From the NCBI GenBank assembly GCA_016342355.1, contig JAEINP010000020.1, positions 1 to 64,000 of the forward strand: a stretch of 64,000 nucleotides of DNA, written 5' to 3'. The position numbers and the translations under genes are program-made. How positions within the stretch are numbered: position 1 is the first letter of the stretch; each line of letters starts with the position of its first letter. Below are positions 47,907-64,000 of the stretch, piece after piece. This stretch comes from Desulfatibacillum sp. (GTDB lineage: Bacteria; Desulfobacterota; Desulfobacteria; Desulfobacterales; Desulfatibacillaceae). The notes beneath the pieces were generated by a model. It worked only from the letters and a program-made list of their open reading frames with translations. It ran no database searches and was not told where the DNA came from.

Positions 47907-50573
47907 ATGGATTCCAAACTCGATAAAGGCTATGAGCCCCACGATGTGGAAGCGCACTGGTATGCATTTTGGGAATCGGAAGGACTTTTTGCCGCCAAGG
48001 AAAGCGGAGATGAAAATGCCTACTCCATTGTCATCCCTCCACCTAATGTTACTGGCGTACTCCATATGGGCCACGCATTGAACGTCACCTTGCAGGACAT
48101 CCTGTGCCGGTACCGCAGGTCAAAGGGAGACAATGTACTTTGGATGCCCGGAACCGACCACGCAGGAATCGCCACCCAAAACGTGGTGGAAAGACAGTTG
48201 GCCACTGAAGGTACGGACAGACACAAAGTGGGCAGGGAAGCCTTTATAGAAAGGGTCTGGGAATGGCGCAAGCAATATGGCGGCGCAATTATCAACCAGC
48301 TTAAACGCCTGGGAGCCTCCTGTGACTGGGACCGGGAACGTTTTACCATGGACGAGGGCTTGTCCCGGGCAGTCCGCAAGGTCTTTGTGGACCTTTACGA
48401 CCAGGGACTTATTTACCGGGGGGACTACATCATCAACTGGTGCCCCCGCTGTCACACGGCCCTGGCTGACCTGGAAGTGGAGCACGAACCAACAGATGGC
48501 AAGCTCTACCAGATCCTCTATCCCTTCGCCCAAGGGGAAGGCGGCTTGGTTGTGGCCACTACGCGGCCCGAAACCATGCTGGGCGACACGGCCGTGGCCA
48601 TCAATCCAAAAGACAAACGCTATGCAGAACTGGAGGCCGACAAGGTCATCCTGCCCATCATGAACCGGGAAATCCCCATTGTGCGGGATTCCTATGTGGA
48701 TACCAAGTTCGGCACCGGCGCACTTAAAGTGACCCCGGCCCACGACGTAAACGACTTCGAAATCGGCCTGCGCCATGACCTCCCCCGGATCAAGGTCATC
48801 GGAGAAGACGGCTGCATGACCGAAGAAGCCGGCGACTACCAGGGCATGGACCGGTTCGAGTGCCGCAAAAAAGTTGTGGAAGACCTGAAAAAACTGGGCC
48901 TGCTGAAAAAGATTGAACCCCACGAACACGGTGTGGGGCAATGTTATCGCTGCAAAACCACTGTGGAGCCCAACCTGAGCAAGCAATGGTTTGTGAAGGC
49001 CAAGCCGTTGGCGGAAAAAGCCATCAAGGCCGTGGAAACCAAAAAAACGCGGATTATTCCCGAAGTGTGGGAAAAAACCTATTTTGAATGGCTTTACAAC
49101 ATCCGTGACTGGTGCATTTCCCGCCAAATCTGGTGGGGACACAGAATCCCGGCATGGACCTGCGCCGATTGCGGCGAAGTTATGGTCCGCCTGGAAGATC
49201 CTGAAAAATGCGCCTGCGGCTCCACCAACCTGGAGCAGGAATCCGACGTTCTGGACACTTGGTTCAGCTCGGCCCTGTGGCCCTTTTCCACCATGGGCTG
49301 GCCCGAGAACACCGAATTGCTCAAGACCTATTATCCCACGTCCGTGCTCATCACCGGGTTTGACATCCTGTTCTTCTGGGTGGCCCGCATGATGATGATG
49401 GGACTCCATTTCATGGACGACGTGCCCTTTAAGGATGTGTACATCCATGCCCTGGTCCGGGACGAAGAAGGCAAAAAAATGAGCAAATCCAAGGGGAACG
49501 TGATTGATCCCCTGGAAGTCATTGAATCCCAGGGCACGGACGCCTTCCGGTTTACCCTGGCCTCCTTTGCCGCCATGGGCCGGGATATCAAGCTCTCGGT
49601 CAAACGTATTGAAGGCTACCGCCACTTTATCAACAAGCTGTGGAACGCGGCCCGGTTCACCCTTGGCCATATTGAAAAAAATCCGGACGCCGCCGCCAAT
49701 GCCAGCAAACCCACAGCCATACCGGATCGGTGGATTCTTTCCCGTCTGCACCAGGTCACACAACAGGTGGAAGAAACCCTGGACTCCTACCAGTTCAATG
49801 AAGCAGCCAACATCCTGTATAAGTTTGTATGGCATGAATTCTGCGACTGGTACCTGGAAGCCGTCAAACCCATTCTTTACGATGAAACCGGCAAGTTCGA
49901 CCGCAACACAACCATTGCCACCCTGCAAAGGGTGTTGACCAATACCCTGGTTCTGCTGCACCCCTTTATTCCTTTTGTGACCGAGGAACTGTGGCACCAC
50001 ATGCCCGGGACCCAGGGCTCCATCATGAAAGCCCCCTTCCCTGCGGATACGGACGAAGCCATTGGCCTTTGTCCGGATAAGGAAGCCGAAGGGGAAATGG
50101 AACTGGTCATGGGAATGGTCACTGCCATCAGGAACATCCGTGGCGAAATGAACATTCCGCCCAACATGGCCCTTGCCACCGTGGTCCAGCCCTCTGACGA
50201 GGCCAATTCCATCATTATTGAAAGAGAAAAGGATCTGATTGCCAACCTGGCCCGCCTGTCTTCCATGAAAATTGACCTAAACCGCCCCAAAGGCGCCGCC
50301 ACGGCGGTTGTGGATGGAAACACCGTTTATGTGCTCCTGGAGGGCGTGATCGACCTGGACAAGGAAGAAGCCCGGCTTGAAAAAGAAATTGCCAAGCTCA
50401 CCAATGAACTGATAAAGTTGGATAAAAAGCTCAACAATGAGGATTTCCTGGCAAAAGCCCCGGACGATGTGGTTGAAAAAGTACGGGGACAACAGGCCGA
50501 ACTGACAGAAAAAAGAGATCACCTGGAATCCAACCTGGAAAAGGTACGCCAAATTCATGGAGACAAAGGATAA
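47907..50573 (+). CDS. valS: Valyl-tRNA synthetase
   Basis: An 888-residue class I synthetase of normal length. Landmarks: [16 protein letters not shown] with the HIGH-like HMGH (about residue 53), the editing domain [17 protein letters not shown], the zinc-like CADCG ... CACGS, the KMSKS loop [14 protein letters not shown], and the ValRS-specific C-terminal coiled coil ([20 protein letters not shown]). The start at 47907 follows GGAGATATG. Its 3' end overlaps nadC by 17 bases. Confidence 0.98.
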
Positions 50574-51447
50574 AACATCCGGCCCGGCCCCTGGCATCTG
50601 GCGCCCGGGGCTGGAAGCCTCCAATATTGTAAAAAGACTTGTGAACCTTGCCCTGGAAGAAGACCTTGCCACCGGGGACATCACCACCGATCCCCTGGTT
50701 CCGCCGGATCGCACAGGCACAGCCATCATCAAAGCCAAGGAAAACCTCCTGGTTGCAGGCATGGACATGGTCCTGATGGTCTTTGACATCCTGGACCCGG
50801 CTATTTCCATCCAGGTCCAGTGCCAGGACGGGGCCCACGCCAAACCCGGAGATGTGTTGGCCACACTTACGGGCAGGCTTCGCCCTCTTTTGTGGGGCGA
50901 AAGAACAGCACTCAATTTTCTTCAGCGGCTTTGCGGCATCGCCACTCATACCCATTCGTACATGCAGGAAACCCATGGGCTTGATGTCAAACTGGCAGAC
51001 ACCAGAAAGACCACCCCGGGCTGGCGCTTACTGGAAAAATACGCCGTAAGGGTCGGAGGAGCCGCCAACCACCGCATGGGCCTTTTTGACGGCATCCTTA
51101 TCAAGGACAACCATATAGTGGCGGCAGGCGGCATCACCCGGGCTGTAATACTGGCTCGTCAGGGCACACACCACTTACTGCGCATCGAAGTGGAAGTGGC
51201 GACCATGGAAGAACTCCGGGAAGCCCTGGACGCCAAGGCGGACGTCATCATGCTGGACAACATGGATGCAGAGCAAATCCGCCAGGCCGTTGCCCTGATT
51301 GACGGCAGGGCGTTGGTGGAGGTTTCCGGGGGCATCAGACGGGAAACCATTCGGGAAATGGCCCGGGCCGGGGTGGATATTCTTTCCTGCGGCGCCCTGA
51401 CCCATGCAGCCCGGGCTGTGGACATCAGCATGAAAATCACGGTATAA
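50557..51447 (+). CDS. nadC: Nicotinate-nucleotide pyrophosphorylase (carboxylating)
   Basis: A 296-residue quinolinate phosphoribosyltransferase, the third step of de novo NAD synthesis. Motifs: [51 protein letters not shown] (split motif), [15 protein letters not shown], the VEVEV-like EVEVATMEE strand, DVIMLDNM and EVSGGI. It begins inside the 3' end of valS, so translation is coupled. Confidence 0.96.
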
Positions 51448-51537
51448 ATAATGCCGGATAGAACGATCCCATCCTTTTGGGATTCCTGACAAGTCCAGTG
51501 TGACAATACGGGGCCGTGCCCGAAAAACGAGCGCATT

Positions 51538-53604
51538 ATGTTCCAGGTGGAAAAAACAAAAACAATCATTTTGGAGGAGGACAATACCACCTCCACCAAA
51601 CATCCGGAAAAACACTCGGACAAGCCTCGCCCGGAAACCACCAAACTCGATGTGGTCAATTTCTTCTTGAACCTCTATAAAAAACAGTTGGGCGCGCCCC
51701 CGTTTTCTCCCGGGGAATGCACGGTTCTGGACTCGGACACCCACGGCCCCGAGTCCCTGTTTGAACTCAAGGTAAAACTTGGGGATGACGTGCACACCCG
51801 ACGCATGACCATCACCCCGTTGGGCGAAGACACTGGCAGCCGCAGCAAGTGCTTTTTTGTCATTTACGACGTGCACATGGTCCTCAAAATTCCTCCCATG
51901 GTTCAAAACAATCTCCAGGAATACATTGAGAGCATACGGCGAGACGCCCGGATTGTGAATCGCCTCACCCCCAGGGAGTGCATTGTCCCTCGGGTTTCGG
52001 TCATCCTGAAAATGATCCGAACCTTTGACCGAACGGAAAATCTCTCTCCCATAAAACTGGAAGAAACCTATATCCAATGGCTGATGGAGGACCCCGGAAC
52101 CCAGGAGTTCCTTAAAATCAAAGGTTGCTTTGTGTATTTTATGGATCTTGCCAAATATTATTTCCTGGGCGGCATTGTATCCAAAATGCAGGACGACAAG
52201 GCCAGAAACGCCGATGAAATCCTTAATCACCAGGAAATCATTTGGGAAACAGATGCTTTTGAAGGCCGTTATGGCTACCAGTACAGCACTCTGTGTGAAG
52301 ACCTTCAACACCTCTATGGCAAGTGCCGCGCCGCCACCAGTTCAGTGCTCATACGCCATAAACTGGCCAGTTCGGTGCAGGATTACCGCATACGCAAATG
52401 GTTTCTCCTGCATCTTGCCGGGCGGACAATCCAGGCTGCAGACGCCGAAGGCAAAACAGAAATCCTGGAGAGTGTCAATCTGGCCATCAGAGGTTTGATG
52501 GAGGAAAACGCGTCCACAGTAAAGTCTTACAGAAAAATGATTAATGAATACGTCCGTGACAAAATGTTTTTCCGGAACAAGCCCCAAATGGAAACTATTA
52601 TCATCAACTTGCTGGAATTATTGGCTTGGTTGCGGCAATCAAAGGTTTCCATCAGGGATTTAAAGCCTGACAATCTACTTGTGGCTGGCAATGCGGACGA
52701 CTATCCCCATTTCCTGAATAGTGCCGGGGAGTACAATATCGGACTCATTGACGTGGAGACCGCCACGGATTTTTCCGGCGACAAACCAGGCTCCATTGAG
52801 CAGCCCCTGTTGGGAGGTACGCCCACCTACGCCACCCCAAGCCATCTTTTTGCCAACGAACTCATAGCCATGGCCTGGGACGATGTGGGACGCACACTCC
52901 ATTACCAGGACTGGCAGGCGACTCTGGGCATGATATACCGGGTTGCCACGGGCAGAGCCTTGTTTTCCAAAACAGGAAAAATATTGCCCAAACTGCCCAG
53001 AATGTTCAGCCAGGCCCCCAAGGGAAAATCGCCCCTGGACCTCATCAAGGAAACTGGCAGGCTTTTCTGGCAATCGGCCATTGCCGAGTTTGATGCTAAA
53101 CGTAAAGACAAAGAGGAAACTCTCAAGGCCCTCAAGATAACCCTGGATGAAACAGCCGTGATGATGCTGCAGGAAGAACTGGCCATTGAAAGTGGAATTG
53201 TGCTTCAATCTTTGAAAAACAGGGTCCTCAACCAAAAAATCTACGGTAGCCATGACGCCAAAAAAAAGCTGTTCTCCGCTTCCGCCAAAAGTCTGAACCA
53301 ACAAAAAGTACGCCTTGCCAGCAGCCCGGACGGCAACGCCTCCCAAATCCGGGTCAAACGCCAGGCCCTCAAGTTCTTCGGGGACCTTGAAAGGATGAAA
53401 AACCATCTGGCCCGCTTGGCATGGGCCCAGAAACAGCTTGCCAAGCCCACCCCCTCCTTTACCGTTTTTGAAATCATGGGAATCCTTTTTGACGCTATTC
53501 TGGTGACCATGCACAATCCCGATTGGCCCGACCTCTCCGGCGGAGACGTGGGCACCTTCGGCCCCTCTACCAAGGACGCCACCTACGAACACGCCACCAT
53601 CTAA
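51538..53604 (+). CDS. Divergent protein-kinase-like protein
   Basis: A 688-residue cytoplasmic protein. The middle third has a eukaryotic-type kinase catalytic core: SIRDLKPDNLLV (about residues 371-382), in which the HRD His is replaced by Ile but Asp, Lys and Asn are kept, and IGLIDVETATDF (about 401), where the usual DFG reads DVE. GGTPTYATPSHLF matches the activation and APE-like segment. The glycine-rich loop is not obvious; the N-terminal 350 residues are unusually long and contain FVIYDVHMVLKIP, a possible ATP-lobe strand with Lys. A predicted coiled-coil C-terminus follows. Activity is uncertain. It lies after nadC, 90 bases away. Confidence 0.7.
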   Translation: MFQVEKTKTIILEEDNTTSTKHPEKHSDKPRPETTKLDVVNFFLNLYKKQLGAPPFSPGECTVLDSDTHGPESLFELKVKLGDDVHTRRMTITPLGEDTGSRSKCFFVIYDVHMVLKIPPMVQNNLQEYIESIRRDARIVNRLTPRECIVPRVSVILKMIRTFDRTENLSPIKLEETYIQWLMEDPGTQEFLKIKGCFVYFMDLAKYYFLGGIVSKMQDDKARNADEILNHQEIIWETDAFEGRYGYQYSTLCEDLQHLYGKCRAATSSVLIRHKLASSVQDYRIRKWFLLHLAGRTIQAADAEGKTEILESVNLAIRGLMEENASTVKSYRKMINEYVRDKMFFRNKPQMETIIINLLELLAWLRQSKVSIRDLKPDNLLVAGNADDYPHFLNSAGEYNIGLIDVETATDFSGDKPGSIEQPLLGGTPTYATPSHLFANELIAMAWDDVGRTLHYQDWQATLGMIYRVATGRALFSKTGKILPKLPRMFSQAPKGKSPLDLIKETGRLFWQSAIAEFDAKRKDKEETLKALKITLDETAVMMLQEELAIESGIVLQSLKNRVLNQKIYGSHDAKKKLFSASAKSLNQQKVRLASSPDGNASQIRVKRQALKFFGDLERMKNHLARLAWAQKQLAKPTPSFTVFEIMGILFDAILVTMHNPDWPDLSGGDVGTFGPSTKDATYEHATI

Positions 53605-53817
53605 TCCGCCGCCCTGCCCTTTCCTTCCATATTCCGTGGAATTCTGACTTGCCATTGCCCCTGAAATATGGCAAAGATTTATATTTAATGAGCCGCCCAT
53701 CCAATCCCCCCCTCCGGGGCAGGACGTTTTGGGCGTAAAGGTTAATTCCTGTTTTCTAAAATATATGATAATCAGCCATGCTCCAGGGCTTTGGGCTGGT
53801 TTCAGGAGGTTGTCACC

Positions 53818-55104
53818 ATGAAAGAAGCGGTAATCGTCAGCGGCGCACGGACTGCCATTGGTTCCTTTGGAGGCGTATTGAAAGGTGTTTCCGTTGTGCA
53901 ACTGGGCAGCACGGTCATGAAGGAAACCCTCAAGAAGGTCAATCTCAGGCCTGTTGTCAGTGAAGCCATGCTTTCCGCCGCGCCGGACTCTCTCAAGGAC
54001 CAGGGAATCATCGAACTGGAAGAAAAAGCCCGGGACTGGGACGATTCGGCCCAGCCCATCACCATAGACGAAGTGATCATGGGCAACGTGCTCACATCAG
54101 GCCAGGGCCAGAACCCGGCCCGCCAGGCCATGATCCAGGCAGGCCTCTGCAAGGAAACCCCTGCTTTCACCATCAATAAAGTGTGCGCTTCCGGTTTGAA
54201 AGCCATCGCCCTGGGCGCGGCTTCCATCATGACCGGTCAGGCTGACGTGATTCTGGCGGGCGGCCAGGAAAGCATGAGCAATGTGCCCATGGCCCTTCCT
54301 CTGGCGCGTTGGGGATACCGCATGGCCATCTCGGGCAAAGGCGAAATCGACGACCTCATGGTCCTGGACGGCCTGTACGAAATCTTCTACGGCTATCACA
54401 TGGGCATGACCGCCGAGAATATCGCCAATAAATACGGCATCACCAGGGAAGAACAGGACGCCCTGGGCGTGCTGAGCCATACCCGCGCCCGGAAAGCCAT
54501 CACCGATGGCCTGTTCAAAGACGAAATCGTGCCCGTCACCTTTATGGAAAGAAGAAAAGAAGTGACCGTGGACACGGACGAGCGCCCCATGGACACCACC
54601 ATGGAAAAAATGGCCAAACTCCGCCCTGCCTTTACAAAGGACGGCACAGTGACCGCCGGAAACGCATCGGGCATCAACGACGGTGCGGCCTCGGTCCTGA
54701 TCATGAGCGCGGAAAAAGCCAAGGAACTGGGCCTGGAGCCCCTGGCGAAAATCAAGGGATTCGCCTCCGCAGGCATGGACCCGGCCTATATGGGCCTTGG
54801 CCCCATCCCGGCTGTGCGCAAGGTCCTGAAATCCACAGGCATGAGCATCAACGACATCCAAATGCTGGAAGTAAACGAAGCATTCGCCTCCCAGGCTATC
54901 GCCTGCCTACGGGAGCTTGGCATTGATACAGAAAAACCCAATGAGCTTGGCAGCGGCATTTCCCTGGGGCATCCCATCGGCTGCACCGGCGCACGCCAGA
55001 TGGTCACCGCCATCCATCACATGAAGCGTAAGGGCTACAACACCGGCCTCATCACCATGTGTATCGGCGGCGGCATGGGCATGGCTATGATCATTGAAAA
55101 ATAA
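53818..55104 (+). CDS. Thiolase (acetyl-CoA C-acyltransferase family)
   Basis: A 428-residue thiolase; the start at 53818 follows CAGGAGGTTGTCACC. It has the nucleophilic Cys in NKVCASGLKA, the NEAF motif, the His in GHPIGCTGAR and the second Cys in CIGGGMG, so both half reactions should work. It is ~35 residues longer than typical thiolases because of a polar insert at about residues 45-80 (SEAMLSAAPDSLKDQG, EELEEKARDW-like) between the first strand and the TIDEVIMGNV segment. It can split 3-ketoacyl-CoA or condense two acetyl-CoA. Confidence 0.93.
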   Translation: MKEAVIVSGARTAIGSFGGVLKGVSVVQLGSTVMKETLKKVNLRPVVSEAMLSAAPDSLKDQGIIELEEKARDWDDSAQPITIDEVIMGNVLTSGQGQNPARQAMIQAGLCKETPAFTINKVCASGLKAIALGAASIMTGQADVILAGGQESMSNVPMALPLARWGYRMAISGKGEIDDLMVLDGLYEIFYGYHMGMTAENIANKYGITREEQDALGVLSHTRARKAITDGLFKDEIVPVTFMERRKEVTVDTDERPMDTTMEKMAKLRPAFTKDGTVTAGNASGINDGAASVLIMSAEKAKELGLEPLAKIKGFASAGMDPAYMGLGPIPAVRKVLKSTGMSINDIQMLEVNEAFASQAIACLRELGIDTEKPNELGSGISLGHPIGCTGARQMVTAIHHMKRKGYNTGLITMCIGGGMGMAMIIEK

Positions 55105-55256
55105 GTGGGCCAAATGTTCAAAATGGGTTAATGGGCAATCAACCCGTTGCATGGATTATGCCTTCCCATGCAGGAGCATGGGAACGAAATAGCACATATA
55201 AATATTCCGGGGCGCACAATCGCCCCGGACATCCCTTGCCAATCAGGAGACAGAGT

Positions 55257-55454
55257 ATGAAAAAGTTTTTAGCAGCGATAACCAGGCCCCGCGCCCTTGG
55301 CATCCTCATTGTTACCGGCGTTCCGGCCATCGTTGGCGGCGGCCTGATCTGGTGGGCCTCCGGCCATTCGTACAGCCTGGTGTTTCCTTATGAAATCATC
55401 CTGTACACGGTCTCCGTGATTGTGGCCTCAAAGGCTGGCGACCTGGAACACTGA
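55257..55454 (+). CDS. Small two-TM membrane protein
   Basis: A 65-residue protein started at 55257 after CAGGAGACAGAGT. A basic N-terminus (KKFLAAITRPRALG) precedes two hydrophobic segments (about residues 17-34 and 41-58). I do not recognise a family. It is 150 bases downstream of the thiolase. Confidence 0.6.
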   Translation: MKKFLAAITRPRALGILIVTGVPAIVGGGLIWWASGHSYSLVFPYEIILYTVSVIVASKAGDLEH

Positions 55455-55654
55455 TTTCGTTTCATGGTATGGACCTGATTTTCAGGAATCCGTGCAGCCA
55501 GGAAATTTTGGATAACCAAAATGCCCTGATGCCGGATTGCATCCCATGCCATGGGGCGATGCATTTTTCCGTTACTGTAAACAAGGGCAAGGTGCCTCCA
55601 GGCAGCCGTCCCTTTTTTGCACAACCCGTACTATGACCTGATTCCGTGTAATGA

Positions 55655-56371
55655 ATGATGACTTCTTACGATAAAATTATCCGCTGGCCCATTTCCATCC
55701 GTTTTTGGGAAACAGGCCGTATTTACGCCAAAGGCCGTATTGAAGACGGTCTGCGCCAGGGCATGTGGACTTTCTACTACCGCACCGGCGCAAAACAAAT
55801 GGAAGGCCTGTACAAGGACGGAGTCCAACAGGGCCTTTGGACCAAATGGTGGCCAAACGGAAACATAACCAGCCAGGGCGGGTTTGACGAAGGCTGGATG
55901 CACGGAACCTGGATCGACTATTTTGACAACGGGGAAAAAGCCCAGGAAAGCCATTGGGACCGGGGCCGTATTACAGGAACCACCACCGTATGGAAAAAGA
56001 ATACCGGCAAGGTTTTAAAACAGCAAAAGCATAAAGACGGCAAGGAAGAACGCAAATATTACCCCCTCATGAGCAACCGCGACACGGCCTTTGCCATGGC
56101 CACAGCCCAAAAAATGGGCATGAAAATGGCCTGGACCAATCTGGTGGGGGAAAAAATCGCCCAATACCTGGAACCCTGGCAATGCGCCCTGTGGGTGCTG
56201 CTTTTTGTACCCGCCTATGCCCTGCTGGAACCCCGCATCGGCTGGATTGCCGTGCCCGCAGGCATGGCTGGCGCGGCAGTAATCGCCCTTTGCGTGGTGG
56301 TGGCCAGCGTGATTCACGACAGCATAACCCGGCCGGACATCGGAATAAGCAGGCCCAAACCCAAGGATTAA
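55655..56371 (+). CDS. MORN-like repeat membrane protein
   Basis: A 238-residue protein. Residues 15-120 contain about five 23-residue MORN-like units of the form G(R/K)xxxKGxxxDGxxxGxWxxYYxxG, for example EDGLRQGMWTFYYRTGAKQM and KDGVQQGLWTKWWPNG. The C-terminus has two TM helices (about residues 178-195 and 202-222). Similar repeats occur in YwqK-type antitoxins and envelope proteins, but no toxin gene is adjacent. It is one base before the AI-2E family gene, so the two are an operon. Confidence 0.72.
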   Translation: MMTSYDKIIRWPISIRFWETGRIYAKGRIEDGLRQGMWTFYYRTGAKQMEGLYKDGVQQGLWTKWWPNGNITSQGGFDEGWMHGTWIDYFDNGEKAQESHWDRGRITGTTTVWKKNTGKVLKQQKHKDGKEERKYYPLMSNRDTAFAMATAQKMGMKMAWTNLVGEKIAQYLEPWQCALWVLLFVPAYALLEPRIGWIAVPAGMAGAAVIALCVVVASVIHDSITRPDIGISRPKPKD

Positions 56372-56372
56372 T

Positions 56373-57443
56373 ATGATGCAAGACCAGAAAACCCACCAGA
56401 TGATCCTCATCTTTTTTCTGGCCATGTACATCATATCCATTGGATTCATGGGCTGGCTGTTGCAGCCTTTTTTTCCCATCCTGATCCTGGCCTTTGTGGT
56501 CACCGGGGTTTTCGCGCCCATTTACCGGCTTTTTGCAAAAAAAATTAGCCCGCCCCTTGCCTCGGGCCTGACATGCATCCTGATTTTCTTTGTCCTGTTC
56601 ATACCCACCCTGCTGTTTGCGGGCATTGTGGCCTCCGAGGCCGTGGGGTTTCTGGACATGGCCAAAAACGCAGCCCTGCCCGAACAAATCCGCACTTTCT
56701 TCAGCAACAGCACCTTGATTGAAAGAGCCAACTCCTTTTTAAGCGACTACGGCATTGTGATTTCCGGCGCGGAAATCACCCGGACCGCCTCCCAGATAGG
56801 CCAGTTTGTGGGGGGATTTTTGTTGGACTCAGGCAAGGCCGTGTTGTCCAATGTCCTTAGCTTTGTCGCCAATTTCATTTTTATGCTGCTGATAATATTC
56901 TTTATCCTGATCGACGGCGGCAGACTGGTGGAATACCTGGTGGATATGTCTCCCCTGCCCCAGGATCAGGACGAAAAACTGGTGGCCAAATTCAAGGATA
57001 TGTCCGGCGCAGTGATTTTAGGCAACGGTTTATGCGGGCTGGCTCAGGGCGTTGCGGGCGGGGTGGTTTTCACAATATTCGGCCTGCCCTCGCCGTTTTT
57101 GTGGGGGGTGGTCATGGGCATCCTGGCGTTTCTGCCTATTGTAGGGATCGGCGTGGTTTTCCTGCCTGCGGCCCTTTTTATGTTCATCAAGGGGAACGTC
57201 GCCACGGCTATCTTCTTTGTGGTTTTTTACGCACTCCTGTCTTTTTCCGTGGAATACATGGTCAAGCCCAAACTGGTGGGAAACCGGGTCCAGATGCACC
57301 CCCTGCTGGTATTCCTGGCCATTGTGGGAGGCCTGAAACTTTTCGGCATCCTGGGGGTCATCTACGGCCCCCTGGTGGTCACATTCTTCCTTACCCTGGC
57401 AGACATCTACCGGGCCAGTTATAAGGAAATTGTGGAGTCGTAA
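56373..57443 (+). CDS. AI-2E family transporter (PerM-like)
   Basis: A 356-residue membrane protein with eight hydrophobic segments. The family pattern is the N-terminal helical pair, a long amphipathic periplasmic domain (about residues 80-150), and the C-terminal block with GVVMGILAFLPIVGIGVVFLP, VEYMVKPKLVGNRVQMHPLLVF and GGLKLFGILGVIYGPLVV. Family members export autoinducer-2, sodium or other solutes; the substrate is not decided here. AAGGA precedes the start. Confidence 0.92.
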   Translation: MMQDQKTHQMILIFFLAMYIISIGFMGWLLQPFFPILILAFVVTGVFAPIYRLFAKKISPPLASGLTCILIFFVLFIPTLLFAGIVASEAVGFLDMAKNAALPEQIRTFFSNSTLIERANSFLSDYGIVISGAEITRTASQIGQFVGGFLLDSGKAVLSNVLSFVANFIFMLLIIFFILIDGGRLVEYLVDMSPLPQDQDEKLVAKFKDMSGAVILGNGLCGLAQGVAGGVVFTIFGLPSPFLWGVVMGILAFLPIVGIGVVFLPAALFMFIKGNVATAIFFVVFYALLSFSVEYMVKPKLVGNRVQMHPLLVFLAIVGGLKLFGILGVIYGPLVVTFFLTLADIYRASYKEIVES

Positions 57444-58000
57444 TTTCTATCCCCGTCAACTAATAACAATATTTTGCAGGGCGCAGGGTTTCCCTGCCCT
57501 ATGGTTGGGGACCCAACCCATGCAAAAATCAAAGGCATTCCATGCCACCGATGGTTTCAATCAATCGCATGCCTTTCATTTGAACCGTAGGGCGCAGGGT
57601 TTCCCCGACCTGGGACGCGGGGACCGCGCAACTACATACGGCGACAATTCCGCCTGAGGCCGTAGGGGCAGGGTTTCCCCCGACCTGGTTGATACCACCG
57701 CGTAGGGGTTGCGCTTTTCTCCCTCCCCCTTGACGGGGGAGGGTCGGGGTGGGGGTGATATTCATTCATATTTCCAGATACTTACCCCCCATCCTGCCCT
57801 TCCCCCGCAAGGGGGGAAGGGACGAAGATTCATGGATGTCGACCTTCGAATGGCCGCCAATTTGCCGGTTGAATAACCACTTGTTTATTCGCCACTCAGC
57901 CTGAAACCATGAAAAAAACAGGAGAAGTTGCACCCGCTTCCGGGAGCGTTGGCTTGCTCCGCGCTTAGGGCAAAGGGTAAAAGGGTAAAAGGGCGCAGGG
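57444..58000. repeat. Repeat-rich non-coding stretch downstream of the KAP-FGE gene
   Basis: About 560 bases with no gene. GGGCGCAGGGTTTCCC-like sequences occur three times (57479-57494, 57587-57613, 57662-57688); the last two also share CGACCTGG. A G-rich hairpin with CCCTCCCCCTTGACGGGGG (from about 57721) and a second with CTTCCCCCGCAAGGGGGGAAG (from about 57798) are the kind of dispersed palindromic boilerplate found scattered in many genomes. AAGGGTAAAAGGGTAAAAGGG lies right after the variable-repeat stop codon. Confidence 0.65.
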
Positions 58001-60082
58001 TTATTTTTTTGTCCTGACGCAACGAAATCCGACAACGTAGTACCTGTTACTCGGATCGACCCTGTCGCGGTACGCGCAACGGGCAATGTCCTGGCCACTG
58101 TCCCAAGAACCGCCCCGCAGAACCGGTCTCTGATCAAGATCAAAGTCGTCCAGGTCTTCATCCGGGTTGTAATTGCTGCGGGTCCATTCCCATACATTGC
58201 CCGCCATGTCGTAGCAACCGGCCTCGCTGATTCCGTTGGGATACCGGGTGACCCGGGTGGTTTTACCTATGCCGGACTCCTTTATATTGCATTTCTCCTT
58301 GTCAAATTCATTTCCCCAAGGATATGTGCGGCCATCCGTGCCCCTCGCGGCCCGTTCCCACTGTTTTTCCGTAGGCAGGTCCTTGCCCGCCCACTTGGCG
58401 TAGGCCTTGGCCTCGTACCAGTTTACGCCCACCACCGGATGCTCCGGCTGGTTCCATTTTTCATCCTTCCAATAGCGGGGTTCTCTTGCACCTTCTTTTT
58501 CTTTCCATTTCCGGCCACTGGGGGTCCAGTATTCCTCTGTTTGATACCCCCCGGCCCGAATAAATTTTTCAAACTGGCTGTTGGTGACGGGGTAGACATC
58601 AATTTCAAAGTCATCAACAATAGTAGCCTTGCGGTCCTGATAAATAAACTCTCCGGCTGGCACCACAACCATGGCATCCAATCCGTCAGACAGTTCCCTT
58701 TCCTTTTCCTTTTCCTTTTCCTTTTTAGCAGAGGGTTCCTCCACCATGCCTGCAAAGGAAATGAGCTGTAAAAACTCCTTTTTCTCCAAATCCATGACCG
58801 CAAGAATGGAAACCAGATCCGAATGAATAAAGAATTTTTTCAGGCTTTCCTCTTTTATGGTTGCGTCATTATCCGGTTGAAGTTCCTTATGGGACTCCCT
58901 ATTGACAAAAGACTGGGCGTATTCCCGGATTTTCTTGTACGAATACTCGCTATCCTTGGCCTCCCGGGCGAAATCATCGGCCAGAGATGGATAGCAGAGC
59001 TTGAACAGGGACCAATAGGTGACATATTTTGACTCCACGTCCATGGCGCCAGCCGCCAACAGTCCTTTCAATAATTGGGTGTTATTGATAAACCGCTTCA
59101 TCTGGCGGGGATTATGCTTAATGGCAGGCAAAACCAGTGCCATGCATTCCTTGATGTCCTCACTTGACTCTGCGCACAGGCCTTCCACATATTGGCTGAA
59201 ATCCCTTTCTTCATAATAAGGCGGCAAGGAAAAGGAAACCTGGACTATTTTTTCCATAAATTTACCGGCATCCTCAGGGCTATATCCTTTTTCATTTTTC
59301 AGGGCCTTTTCAATGATATCCGTGGCCGCGCCTATGACGAACATGCACCCTTCCTTATCCAGAAAGAGCTTGATGGTTTCCAGAATTTTCACGATTCGGT
59401 CTTCCGGGCACCGGTCAAGGTCGTCTATGAACACCACCATCACCCCTTTGGTATCGTCAAGTTGGTCTATCTTGCTTTTTGGAGGCAACCAAGCGGCATA
59501 ATCAAGCACAAGGCTTTCAAAAAATTTCTCAAAACTGCTGTAAAAACAAAGTTTCTGCTTGTGCTCCAACTCAGAAAACAGATCCAAAAGCTCCAGGCCT
59601 GAACATTTTTCCAACACCTTCCCCACTGCCTTGAATGGATTAAATTTTGAAATCAACTCTTCGATATGGGCTTTGGCTTCGGAAAGGTAGTCGTCACGTT
59701 TCATCGTCATCAAAATACACTCAATCAAAGCCGCCAATATGGCGTCTTCGTCCGCGTATTTCCAGGCCTGGAACCAAACGGTTTTGCACCTGCGGCAGTT
59801 TTCCTGGCCAATTAATTCTTCCAGGGTCTTCTCATTCTGCCCCATATCCTGTCCATTACCGGGCTCGGAAACCTTGCCGCCTTTGAGGATGCGCTCCACG
59901 TTTTTCATGAGCGTGGTTTTGCCCGATCCCCACGGGCCGTGAACGCCAATCACCAACGGCGTTTCATTTTCCTTGTTGGCGATGATCCCGGCAATGGTCT
60001 TGGCGTACACTTGAAAATTGAATTTCTTTGTGTTGTCCTCGGCAGAATCAGTGATGATATGAACCGGTTCAAAATCTGACAT
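58001..60082 (-). CDS. KAP-family P-loop NTPase fused to FGE/C-type-lectin domain (candidate DGR target)
   Basis: A 693-residue two-part protein; I use the Met at 60082 (MSDFEPVHII). The N-terminal ~450 residues are a KAP P-loop NTPase: Walker A GVHGPWGSGKTTLMKN (about 47-62), Walker B VVFIDDLDRCPEDR (about 215) and LPPYYEERDFSQYVEG. A Lys/Glu-rich linker near residue 450 leads to a formylglycine-generating-enzyme-like domain (VPAGEFIYQDRKATIVDDF to GFRCVRTKK) with YPVTNSQFEKFI, EHPVVGVNWYEAKAY and GNVWEWTRS. The end has the LRGGSW ... GFR framework of retroelement-diversified lectins. Such fusions are proposed conflict or sensing proteins. It is divergent from gyrA. Confidence 0.88.
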   Translation of the reverse strand: MSDFEPVHIITDSAEDNTKKFNFQVYAKTIAGIIANKENETPLVIGVHGPWGSGKTTLMKNVERILKGGKVSEPGNGQDMGQNEKTLEELIGQENCRRCKTVWFQAWKYADEDAILAALIECILMTMKRDDYLSEAKAHIEELISKFNPFKAVGKVLEKCSGLELLDLFSELEHKQKLCFYSSFEKFFESLVLDYAAWLPPKSKIDQLDDTKGVMVVFIDDLDRCPEDRIVKILETIKLFLDKEGCMFVIGAATDIIEKALKNEKGYSPEDAGKFMEKIVQVSFSLPPYYEERDFSQYVEGLCAESSEDIKECMALVLPAIKHNPRQMKRFINNTQLLKGLLAAGAMDVESKYVTYWSLFKLCYPSLADDFAREAKDSEYSYKKIREYAQSFVNRESHKELQPDNDATIKEESLKKFFIHSDLVSILAVMDLEKKEFLQLISFAGMVEEPSAKKEKEKEKERELSDGLDAMVVVPAGEFIYQDRKATIVDDFEIDVYPVTNSQFEKFIRAGGYQTEEYWTPSGRKWKEKEGAREPRYWKDEKWNQPEHPVVGVNWYEAKAYAKWAGKDLPTEKQWERAARGTDGRTYPWGNEFDKEKCNIKESGIGKTTRVTRYPNGISEAGCYDMAGNVWEWTRSNYNPDEDLDDFDLDQRPVLRGGSWDSGQDIARCAYRDRVDPSNRYYVVGFRCVRTKK
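58031..58102 (-). repeat. Candidate variable repeat (VR) of a diversity-generating retroelement
   Basis: Minus-strand codons after RGGSW are GAC, AGT, GGC, CAG, GAC, ATT, GCC, CGT, TGC, GCG, TAC, CGC, GAC, AGG, GTC, GAT, CCG, AGT, AAC, AGG, TAC, TAC, GTT, GTC. The 15 codons at likely variable positions all end in C or T and can be made from AAC or AAT by changing only A. The codons between them fit the conserved lectin framework. This is the expected result of adenine-specific retrohoming. Confidence 0.65.
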
Positions 60083-60190
60083 GGCTGCTCCCAGGCAATT
60101 GGACTCTGGATACGATAAAGGGCGCAAATTTTTTATCAGGGGGGATCTTGGAATTATATACAAAATGATATGGCATATGACAAGCATTAG

Positions 60191-60400
60191 ATGGTGGCGT
60201 TGGGATTAAATACTATTTATGGGGTGATTGGTGCGGGGGGCGTAAAAACATCCAAATCCAACGGATTTTTCAGCCTGCCTGAATACACTGAATACGCCGC
60301 CCTATCCCTGCGGAATCCGGCGAAATACCACGATTATCAGGGAGTTCTTTCCTATATAAAATCCCTTAAAGGCCTTGACTATCGGGCCTTTATTGACTAA
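60191..60400 (+). CDS. Possible small protein, low confidence
   Basis: A 69-codon frame between the KAP-FGE gene and gyrA, with an ATG at 60191 but no ribosome site. The C-terminal half (FSLPEYTEYAALSLRNPA ... LDYRAFID) looks protein-like, but I cannot match it to a family. It may be a remnant or non-coding. Confidence 0.25.
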   Translation: MVALGLNTIYGVIGAGGVKTSKSNGFFSLPEYTEYAALSLRNPAKYHDYQGVLSYIKSLKGLDYRAFID

Positions 60401-60508
60401 AAGTATCTATTTTCCTTTCAAGGGAATTAGCGTCTTAAAAATGGGGCGGGGAAATCCCTCCGGCCCGGCTTCGCAAGGCAATCTTTCCAACCCTATACAG
60501 GAGTAACC

Positions 60509-62944
60509 ATGGACTTGGGAGAAAACATGCTCGAGATCAGCATCGAGAGCGAGATGAAAAAATCGTATCTCGATTACGCCATGAGCGTGATAATAGGCCG
60601 GGCCCTGCCGGATGTGCGGGACGGCCTGAAACCGGTTCACCGGCGTGTGCTTTTCGCCATGCGGGAACTGAAGAACGATTACAACAAGCCTTATAAAAAA
60701 TCCGCCCGCGTGGTTGGTGACGTCATTGGTAAGTATCACCCCCACGGCGACTCTGCGGTTTACGACACCATCGTGCGTATGGCCCAGGATTTTTCCCTGC
60801 GCTACCCCTTAGTGGACGGCCAGGGCAACTTCGGGTCCGTGGACGGGGACCCCGCCGCCGCCATGCGTTACACGGAAATCCGCATGATGAAGTTGTCCCA
60901 GTCCATCCTGGAAGACCTGGACAAAGACACGGTGGATTTCACCCCCACGTATGACGAATCCATGGAAGAGCCCACCGTCATGCCCACCCGGATTCCCAAC
61001 CTCCTGGTGAACGGCTCCTCGGGCATTGCCGTGGGCATGGCCACCAACATCCCTCCCCATAACCTGGGAGAGATTGTGGACGCCTTGTGCGAGATCATTG
61101 ACAATCCCCAGGTCACGCCATTGGAACTGCTAAAGCATGTTCCGGGGCCGGACTTTCCCACAGGCGGCATCATCTATGGCCGTTCAGGCATCCACAGCGC
61201 CTATTCCACGGGACGGGGCATCGTCAAGGTACGCGCCCGGATTATGGTGGAAAAGGATAACCGCACAGGCAAGGAAACCCTGGTGGTGACCGAACTGCCC
61301 TACCAGGTGAACAAGGCCCGGGTTATTGAAAAAATCGCCCAGCTCATGAAGGACAAAGTGATCGAAGGCCTTGCCTTTGTGCGGGACGAATCCGACCGGG
61401 AAGGCATGCGCATCGCCATGGGGCTGAAAAAAGATGAGATGGCCACCATCATCATCAACAAGCTCTATAAGCACACCCAGTTGGAGAATTCTTTCGGCAT
61501 TATCCTCCTATCCATTGTGAACAACCGGCCCGAACTGCTCAACCTGAAGGAGACCCTGCAATATTTTATCGCCCACCGCAAGGTGGTGGTGATTCGTAGA
61601 ACCCGTTACGAGCTTGCCAAAGCCGAGGCCCGCGCCCATATTCTGGAAGGCTACAGGATCGCCATCGACAACCTGGACGAGGTGGTGAAGCTCATCCGGG
61701 CCAGCAGCACACCCCTGGAAGCCCGGGAAGGCCTCATGGCCCGTTTCAGCCTTTCCCAGATTCAGGCCCAGGCCATTCTGGACATGCGTCTGCAAAAGCT
61801 CACTGGCCTGGAAATTGAAAAGGTTGAAGAAGAATACAAGGAACTTATCAAGGCCATTTCCTGGTACATGGAAATCCTGGGAAACGACCTGTTGGTCCTG
61901 AAAATCGTCCGGGATGAATTGCTGGAAGTCCGGACGGAATACGCCGACGCACGGCGCACGGAAATCGTGGATGACTCAGGCGAGATCACCATTGAAGACA
62001 TGATCGTGGAAGAGGACATGGTGGTGACCATTTCCCAACGTGGCTACATCAAGCGAAATCCGCTGACCCTGTACCACAGCCAACGCCGGGGCGGAAAAGG
62101 CAAGATTGGCATGGGCACCGGGGAAGAGGACTTTGTATCCCGCCTGTTTGTGGCCTCCACCCACCATACCCTGCTCTTCTTCACCAACCTGGGCCGGGTG
62201 TACTGGCGCAAGGTTTACGAGATCCCCCAGGCCGGACGGGCCGCCAAAGGCAAGTTTATTTCCAACCTGCTTGACCTTGCCCCCAACGAAGAACTGGCCA
62301 CAGTACTGGACGTGAAGGAATTCGAGCCCGGATACAACATCATTATGGCCACCAAGGACGGGCTGGTGAAAAAGACCGACCTTCTGGCGTACAGCAATCC
62401 CCGGGCCAACGGAATCATCGCCCTGGACCTTTCGGAAGGGGATCAGCTTATTACGGCCCGCATCAGCGACGGCACCCAAAACGTTTTCCTGGGTTCGGCC
62501 TTTGGCAAGTCCATCCGTTTCCATGAGTCCGACGTGCGGACCATGGGCCGTGTTTCCCGAGGCGTGAAGGGCATCACCCTTTCCAAGGGCGACCATCTGG
62601 TGGGCATGGAGGTTCTTACCCATGGCAAGACCCTGTTCTCCTGCACGGAAAACGGGTTTGGAAAGCGTACATCCCTGGACGAATACCCTTTGCAAAAACG
62701 GGGCGGCAAGGGTGTTATCACCATCCGCACCCACGAACGCAACGGGAATGTGATTGCCATCCTTGTGGTATCCAACGACGATGATCTCATGCTCATGACC
62801 GATGCGGGCAAGATCATCCGCATGCCCATAGGGGATATTTCCGTTATCAGCCGAAATACCATGGGCGTCAGGCTTATGGGCATGGAGTCTACGGAAAGGC
62901 TCATTGGAGCTGCGCGTCTGGCTGAAAAGGACGAGGAGAATTAA
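60509..62944 (+). CDS. gyrA: DNA gyrase subunit A
   Basis: An 811-residue type II topoisomerase subunit; start 60509 after CAGGAGTAACC. The catalytic Tyr is Tyr121 in AMRYTEIRM. The quinolone region [17 protein letters not shown] keeps wild-type Ser82 and Asp86 (Ser83/Asp87 in E. coli). The C-terminal DNA-wrapping beta-pinwheel is visible ([24 protein letters not shown]-like) with the GyrA box QRRGGKG. gyrB is not in the window. It is followed at once by gpsA. Confidence 0.98.
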
Positions 62945-62950
62945 CCATAC

Positions 62951-63997
62951 ATGGCATATTTGTTTAATAAGAGCATGGATGATTTGAAGGTTGCTGTTGT
63001 TGGCGGAGGGAGCTGGGGCACGGCCCTGGCTCAATTGATGGCCTCCAAAGGATACTTGACGTCCCTGTGGGTTCTTGAAGAGGAAGTGATTGAATCCATA
63101 GCCAAGGAACGGGAAAACAAAGTGTTTTTGCCGGGCATCCCGTTGTCGGAAAACATCGTCCCTACCCTGGACCTGGAAGAAGCGATTAGGGATAAGGACC
63201 TGATTATCACCGTAGTGCCCTCCGAATGGCTGCGGGAAACGTCGGAAAAGATGGCTCCGCTCATTAAACCGGACGCCATTGTGGTTTCGGCCACCAAAGG
63301 AATTGAAATCGGCACGCGGATGACCATGTCAGACATTCTGCGCGAGACCCTGACCGGGCTGCCCGAGGAAAATATCTGCGTGGTTTCCGGTCCCAGCTTC
63401 GCCCGGGAGGTTGCACAGGGAATGCCCACGGTGGTCACCGTGGCGGCCATTGATCCCCGGGTTGCGGAGTTGGTGCAGGAGGCCTTCGCCACCCCGTATT
63501 TCAGGGTCTATACCAACACCGATTTGCTTGGGGTGGAAATTGGCGGCGCAGTGAAGAATGTCATGGCCATTGCTTCGGGTATTTGCGAAGGACTTGGTTT
63601 TGGCGCCAACACCCGGGCGGCCCTTATCACCCGGGGTTTAAACGAAATGCGCCGGCTTGGCCTGGCTATGGGCGCCAAGCCGGAAACCTTCGGGGGACTG
63701 GCGGGCGTGGGGGATCTGGTGCTCACGTGCACGGCGGATCTTTCCCGGAATTATTCCTTTGGAAAAAAAATCGGCCAAGGCATGAAGCGCCAGGAGATTC
63801 TCTCTAAAATGCGCATGGTGGCCGAGGGTGTGCGTTCCTCCAAGTCTGTTTATAATTTATCCCTGAAAATGAATGTGGAAATGCCCATTGTGGAGCAGAC
63901 TTATAAGGTATTGTATGAGGATGAAGATCCTGCCAAGGCCTTGTACAACCTCATGACCCGCAAGTTGCGTGACGAAACCGACGACCAGTATGGCTGA
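62951..63997 (+). CDS. gpsA: Glycerol-3-phosphate dehydrogenase [NAD(P)+]
   Basis: A 348-residue enzyme that makes sn-glycerol 3-phosphate for phospholipids. The N-terminal Rossmann motif is AVVGGGSWGTALA, followed by NKVFLPGIPL, SATKGIE, SGPSFAREV, the catalytic Lys in GGAVKNVMAIASG and GLAGVGDLVLTC. The start at 62951 follows GAGGAGAATTAACCATAC; a later Met at 62975 is possible. It is six bases after gyrA, so the pair is co-transcribed. The stop is the last three bases before the window edge region. Confidence 0.97.
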   Translation: MAYLFNKSMDDLKVAVVGGGSWGTALAQLMASKGYLTSLWVLEEEVIESIAKERENKVFLPGIPLSENIVPTLDLEEAIRDKDLIITVVPSEWLRETSEKMAPLIKPDAIVVSATKGIEIGTRMTMSDILRETLTGLPEENICVVSGPSFAREVAQGMPTVVTVAAIDPRVAELVQEAFATPYFRVYTNTDLLGVEIGGAVKNVMAIASGICEGLGFGANTRAALITRGLNEMRRLGLAMGAKPETFGGLAGVGDLVLTCTADLSRNYSFGKKIGQGMKRQEILSKMRMVAEGVRSSKSVYNLSLKMNVEMPIVEQTYKVLYEDEDPAKALYNLMTRKLRDETDDQYG

Positions 63998-64000
63998 ATG

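Follow-up and report, generated by a model that had tools for sequence, protein, structure and literature searches.

The locus and its product

The window, the 64,000-nucleotide stretch of Desulfatibacillum sp. DNA analyzed here, carries on its minus strand an intact open reading frame (ORF) of 693 amino acids with its ATG at position 60082 (Table 1). The preliminary description had identified this ORF as a fusion of a KAP NTPase with an FGE domain; the coordinates given were correct, and the fusion was borne out by Pfam matches and by intact Walker A (GPWGSGKT, residue 49) and Walker B (VVFIDDLDR, residue 216) motifs. Weaker matches of the KAP domain to QatA, PifA and PDC-S20 were detected with PADLOC, while sequence matches of the FGE domain in the PDB included FGE, EgtB and TvpA (2y3c), a protein of a diversity-generating retroelement (DGR). 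The C-terminal stretch of the protein has the sequence VLRGGSWDSGQDIARCAYRDRVDPSNRYYVVGFRCVRTKK. A C-type-lectin-fold domain, with the fold assigned from sequence only, is thereby located at the C terminus and ends in the equivalent of a variable region (VR), as in DGR targets; structure prediction of the FGE domain from a four-sequence alignment gave a mean pLDDT of 44 and was set aside.

The KAP-FGE gene sits between a permease-type gene (56373-57443, plus strand) and a gyrA-like gene (60509-62944, plus strand), both named from their translations. A sister species of the same genus (G067) has the same two flanks in the same order, about 0.7 kb apart, and lacks the KAP-FGE gene; no full-length copy of the gene was detected in a search of nine genomes of the family. 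The GC3 value of the gene was 0.59 versus 0.63 to 0.73 for neighboring genes, a difference weakly compatible with lateral arrival. The spacer 3′ of the gene contains three imperfect 29-nt direct repeats (GTAGGGCGCAGGGTTTCCCCGACC type) at 57474-57688. The short repeat GGGCGCAGGGTT occurs at either end of the spacer and could have marked a deletion junction, but this idea was dropped, as 5 of 100 shuffles reached an equal count. Elsewhere in the window, a 688-amino-acid ORF (51538-53604, plus strand) had a weak match to protein kinases (E 1.5e-4, below the cut-off) and to no other Pfam family.

Table 1. Features of the KAP-FGE locus (positions within the window)
Feature	Position	Strand	Basis or remark
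Non-coding spacer, site of Avd, RT and TR in relatives	57444..57971	.	Any remnants undetectable by tblastn
CT-rich tract CCCTTTTACCCTTTTACCCTTT	57972..57993	-	Directly 3′ of VR/stop codon; common to DGR-bearing relatives
KAP NTPase-FGE (C-type lectin fold) fusion gene, intact ORF, probable former DGR target	58001..60082	-	PF07693, PF03781, Walker A/B, homologues
FGE-sulfatase/C-type-lectin-fold domain, residues 469-690	58013..58678	-	Pfam PF03781, E 9.9e-55
VR equivalent, 37 codons (VLRGGSW...GFRCVR), ending in VR-type CAGG	58013..58123	-	Aligned codon by codon to VRs and TRs of relatives
Twelve codons, probably once adenine-mutagenized, residues 661, 662, 663, 666, 671, 673, 675, 676, 678, 681, 682, 683	58034..58102	-	AAY in TR of G333
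KAP_NTPase domain, residues 24-339	59066..60013	-	Pfam PF07693, E 7.4e-40

Relatives with complete cassettes

Among 389 genomes of the order that were searched, eleven besides that of the window encode complete or almost complete KAP-FGE homologues, with 44 to 52% identity to the window protein in ten of these and 40% in G112; other homologues in the order were interrupted by contig ends. Searches with the RVT_1 profile showed that three family members have a reverse transcriptase (RT) gene some 600 bases away on their 3′ side. In genome G333 (L094), the KAP-FGE gene is followed by Avd (NF033474 above the cut-off and also PF22296), an RT with the motif IPIGNLTSQ and then a template repeat (TR). 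Comparison of this TR with its VR revealed changes in 14 of 30 adenines and in none of the 81 other bases. Similar comparisons gave 20/38 adenines and 1/80 other bases for G363, 21/37 and 1/80 for G364 and, for a NACHT-FGE target in G212, 16/33 and 1/86. Second targets in G363 (a NACHT-FGE protein) and G364 had changes in 21/38 and 17/38 adenines, respectively, and the loci of G363, G364 and G212 exhibited a one-base IMH-type difference at the end of the VR. By their architecture and adenine specificity, the loci of G333, G363 and G364, each an orthologue with a TR and RT in cis, are genuine DGRs. Neighboring or related targets in the relatives contained NACHT/nSTAND, caspase-like and metallophosphatase-like domains.

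Two other loci were noted. In G060 (L097 502-7540), long near-identical direct repeats surround a 521-amino-acid DGR-type RT (LPIGNLTSQ), and the differences between these repeats cluster near the 3′ end of another kind of target gene; no DGR footprint was seen in the KAP-FGE gene of this genome. An FGE-domain target with a VR signature also occurs in a MAG of candidate division WOR-3 (L026), together with a CT tract and an Avd that seems to be frameshifted; its presence in a different phylum points to lateral spread.

A CT-rich tract 3′ of the VR

The CT-rich tract of the window was the single occurrence of this sequence in the 5.26-Mb genome at up to 2 mismatches. A CT tract was found in the equivalent place in G333, G363, G364, G128, G214, G341, G347 and others, and most relatives with a VR have the core of the tract, TTTTACCCTTT, at this site; in G363 and G364 it follows both targets. 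This core was absent at this place in G060, G112 and G279. In the larger loci, nearly all occurrences of the core fell at VR ends.

Phage DGRs have a GC hairpin of 7 to 10 bp located 3′ of the VR (PMC3240598). The window has only a 5-bp stem with an 8-nt loop at this position, shorter than the phage hairpin, and some other relatives have only short GC stems of 5 to 6 bp. No 7- to 10-bp GC hairpin was found within 95 nt of the stop codon in G333, G363 or G364 either, and hence its absence is not diagnostic for this lineage. As the known hairpin is lacking and the CT tract occupies its place, we hypothesize that the tract may be a target-recognition element of this DGR lineage.

Footprint of adenine mutagenesis in the VR

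The preliminary description had counted fifteen variable codons in the C-terminal stretch. When the variable codons were instead set by alignment with the AAY codons of the G333 TR, twelve core codons were obtained, which in the window gene read GAC AGT GGC ATT TAC GAC GTC GAT AGT TAC TAC GTT; all twelve are NNY and none is AAY. A permutation of the window gene reached 12/12 NNY in 2 of 100,000 draws. Across nine sequences, the mean pairwise mismatch at codon positions 1, 2 and 3 was 0.72, 0.65 and 0.32 for the twelve TR-adenine columns, 0.08, 0.07 and 0.41 for the VR framework and 0.28, 0.26 and 0.59 for the FGE domain upstream of the VR. The twelve codons thus vary at positions 1 and 2 and are restrained at position 3, the opposite of the remaining gene. 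This inverted pattern was reached in 0 of 100,000 draws of equally variable background columns for the family, a test in which the columns were picked from G333, itself one of the sequences, and in 1 of 100,000 draws for the window versus the other sequences; the window's own NNY count is independent of the choice of columns.

The codon endings alone are less telling. Nineteen of the 24 codons from 6 to 29 of the C-terminal stretch end in C or T, compared to 51% gene-wide (P about 0.005), a modest bias that, on its own, would be suggestive of a DGR without establishing one. The preliminary description had added that these codons can arise from AAC or AAT, but this is not a second, independent fact, since AAY can give rise to any NNY codon. 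In this genome, other FGE proteins have 13 to 18 NNY codons among the 20 to 22 at this place, as might be expected if the window gene were an ordinary FGE protein that had never been a DGR target, with a surface loop varied by selection and C/T endings due to chance. Such an origin does not account for the inverted codon-position pattern at the twelve TR columns, for orthologues with DGRs in cis or for the unique 3′ tract common to these orthologues and the window. Moreover, the KAP-FGE genes of G112 and G060, neither of which has the tract or adjoins DGR parts of the G333 kind, also lack the full pattern (10/12 and 5/12 NNY, respectively). We therefore consider an origin without any DGR to be very improbable. 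As the orthologues in relatives adjoin Avd, RT and TR and share their footprint with the window codons, the evidence supports the C terminus of the window protein being a DGR-made VR. The DGR signature proposed earlier is, hence, genuine, but it is carried by the cis DGRs of the relatives and the codon-position footprint, the argument from NNY codons being weak.

Search for DGR machinery in the genome

The genome is a 142-contig draft of 5.26 Mb, listed as 100% complete, and the whole-genome tests rest on searches of this assembly. The RVT_1 profile, which recognizes the BPP-1 RT (Brt) well, gave two matches, adjacent to each other on contig C40 (L003:10131-13371). These were identified as DRT3a and DRT3b (E 1e-116 and 3e-194, respectively), have the motifs RGLPVSA and IGPEVSR and lack the DGR motif [IVL]GxxxSQ; they were, therefore, rejected as DGR candidates, being an antiviral defense pair. 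Searches of the genome with either BPP-1 Brt or the G333 RT as the query detected only DRT3a, and weakly.

The 48 bases in the middle of the VR, written as an A-degenerate pattern with up to 3 further mismatches allowed, matched only the VR itself in the whole genome; a TR with more than 3 non-A divergences over these 48 bases would escape this search. No second copy was detected by blastn with the VR, and no TR-like pair was present near the gene. A blastn search with the G333 TR was uninformative because this query did not detect the window's own VR. Since non-adenine positions have to agree in a working TR, such a repeat would have been picked up by the degenerate pattern and is, on the evidence of these searches, excluded from the assembled sequence; a decayed TR may persist elsewhere in the genome. 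Searches by tblastn of the 14 kb around the gene (50001-64000) with three Avd proteins found nothing beside the gene, and with Avd and RT gave a single weak, chance-level match near 52.4 kb. No relative was found in the viral contigs searched. With neither a DGR-type RT nor a TR detected in the genome and no Avd detected beside the gene, the locus as read from its sequence is not a complete DGR.

The earlier statement that the window contains no RT or template was correct and, as regards a DGR-type RT and a TR matching the VR, holds for the entire assembly; the genome-wide check proposed with it, for a DGR RT and an adenine-mismatch template, was run and found neither. Diversification in trans had been suggested instead. 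The DGR responsible would lie elsewhere in the cell, in an unassembled stretch, a plasmid or a prophage. Trans diversification with matching TRs has been reported for Thiohalocapsa PB-PSB1 (PMC10907252), the VR and 3′ tract of the window gene look intact, and in a draft of 142 contigs a cassette could lie wholly within a gap. However, the genome is listed as 100% complete, its only RTs are DRT3a and DRT3b, and no TR differing from the VR at adenines and up to 3 other bases is present; a working one would have to match at non-adenines. Continued diversification in trans thus lacks support and appears very unlikely.

A probable orphaned target

We conclude that the KAP-FGE gene is very probably an orphaned target of a DGR and is no longer diversified. 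Its ancestor would have belonged to a cassette of KAP-FGE, Avd, RT and TR, in many cases with a second NTPase-FGE target behind it. In copying the TR, the RT would have inserted random bases opposite adenines, and the resulting cDNA would have replaced the 3′ end of the gene, thereby remodeling the surface with which the lectin-fold domain binds its ligand, as suggested by the A-only differences between TRs and VRs of the relatives. Transcription of a TR RNA, A-mutagenic cDNA synthesis and replacement of the VR form an established mechanism in BPP-1. The lineage of the window would then have either shed Avd, RT and TR or received only the target, inserted between gyrA and the permease gene, and the VR would now be one fixed version altered by ordinary mutation only.

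We infer that the machinery was lost from this lineage rather than never present. Loss in place is not directly visible, as no remnant of Avd, RT or TR is detectable beside the gene, and the order of gain and loss cannot be read from the KAP-FGE protein tree due to its poor resolution. Partial losses in three relatives, G128, G214 and G341, in which Avd is present and an RT with the DGR motif was not found, indicate that loss within the family seems to be recurrent, with some of these genomes also being drafts. In G128 (L098 3125-17322), four NTPase-FGE genes lie in a row, three with the exact core of the 3′ tract, together with two Avd pieces; one gene encodes caspase-like, nSTAND1 and TPR domains, and no RT was found in the genome. 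G214 has kept an apparently complete Avd, and none of the five inspected RT matches out of its eight was DGR-type. In G341 (L100 6382-9486), the second target ORF runs from the FGE domain into an Avd remnant, a configuration that looks like a deletion junction.

The orphaned gene could be a passenger of the former cassette that is drifting towards a pseudogene and has no present function. In the tree, no VR-bearing member has a longer branch than the window gene, which speaks for relaxed constraint and possible decay; the partner target and the machinery are missing, and GC3 is below that of the neighbors. On the other side, no internal stop interrupts the 693-codon ORF, the FGE framework and the two Walker motifs are preserved, and positions 1 and 2 of the VR framework differ by only 5 to 6% from relatives. 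An intact ORF and a conserved framework speak for use; we regard a dying gene as possible but unlikely, and the gene may still be used by the cell.

Homology makes a role as sensor or effector plausible. Similar NTPase-lectin targets have been argued to be conflict sensors (PMC10907252, PMC7159879), and the NTPase-plus-lectin layout, in conjunction with the NACHT/nSTAND, caspase-like and metallophosphatase-like domains of the relatives, suggests the same here. In the most likely scheme, the window protein would act in the cytoplasm as a sensor driven by its NTPase: the lectin domain would bind a foreign or stress ligand and the KAP NTPase would relay the signal, as in NTPase conflict systems. 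A wider and rather speculative proposal, which we advance with low confidence, is that NTPase-lectin sensors of this lineage have repeatedly been freed from the hypermutation machinery and kept as fixed, germline-type innate receptors, with the CT tract replacing the hairpin for recognition. These analyses show that a DGR footprint is legible by statistics where a genome no longer has a recognizable DGR, and orphan targets thus permit the recovery of DGR histories that RT-based surveys miss. They raise the question of whether former hypermutation targets are kept as fixed immune-type receptors or are simply decaying.

Comparison with known systems

The window protein belongs to the same NTPase family as QatA, PifA and PDC-S20, with the matches confined to the KAP part. 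It is not a Qat component by its score with the QatA model (104.7 bits versus a cut-off of 600) or by its surroundings, in which no QatB, QatC or QatD neighbors were found. The FGE-type lectin fold is common to TvpA of Treponema denticola (PDB 2y3c; sequence match E 7e-7), itself a DGR protein. To our knowledge, TvpA (a chain of 294 amino acids) has no KAP domain. As in the Mtd/Avd/Brt system of BPP-1, the relatives have Avd, an RT with [IVL]GxxxSQ, a TR and A-only changes; unlike in BPP-1, the target is a probable NTPase sensor rather than a tail protein, and a CT-rich tract is found in place of the hairpin in G333, G363 and G364.

The closest parallels are the DGR targets of Thiohalocapsa PB-PSB1 and clade 5D, among which are KAP NTPases, two-target loci and incomplete loci (PMC10907252), and some of which match a remote TR (PMC10907252). 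Like these targets, the window protein has an NTPase fused to a C-terminal C-type-lectin/FGE domain with a VR. In contrast to Thiohalocapsa PB-PSB1, no RT or TR of a DGR was found in the genome of the window, the gene stands alone among housekeeping-type genes, and the locus has no second target or effector. A description of an orphan DGR target of this type was not found in the literature, which was covered in part and is weak evidence on this point. NTPase-FGE targets, including those with KAP domains, and incomplete or remote loci were already known (PMC10907252), and the window protein is such a target as judged by its footprint and orthology. As far as checked, the new elements are a DGR fossil that is statistically readable in a genome with no recognizable DGR and a conserved CT tract at the end of the VR.
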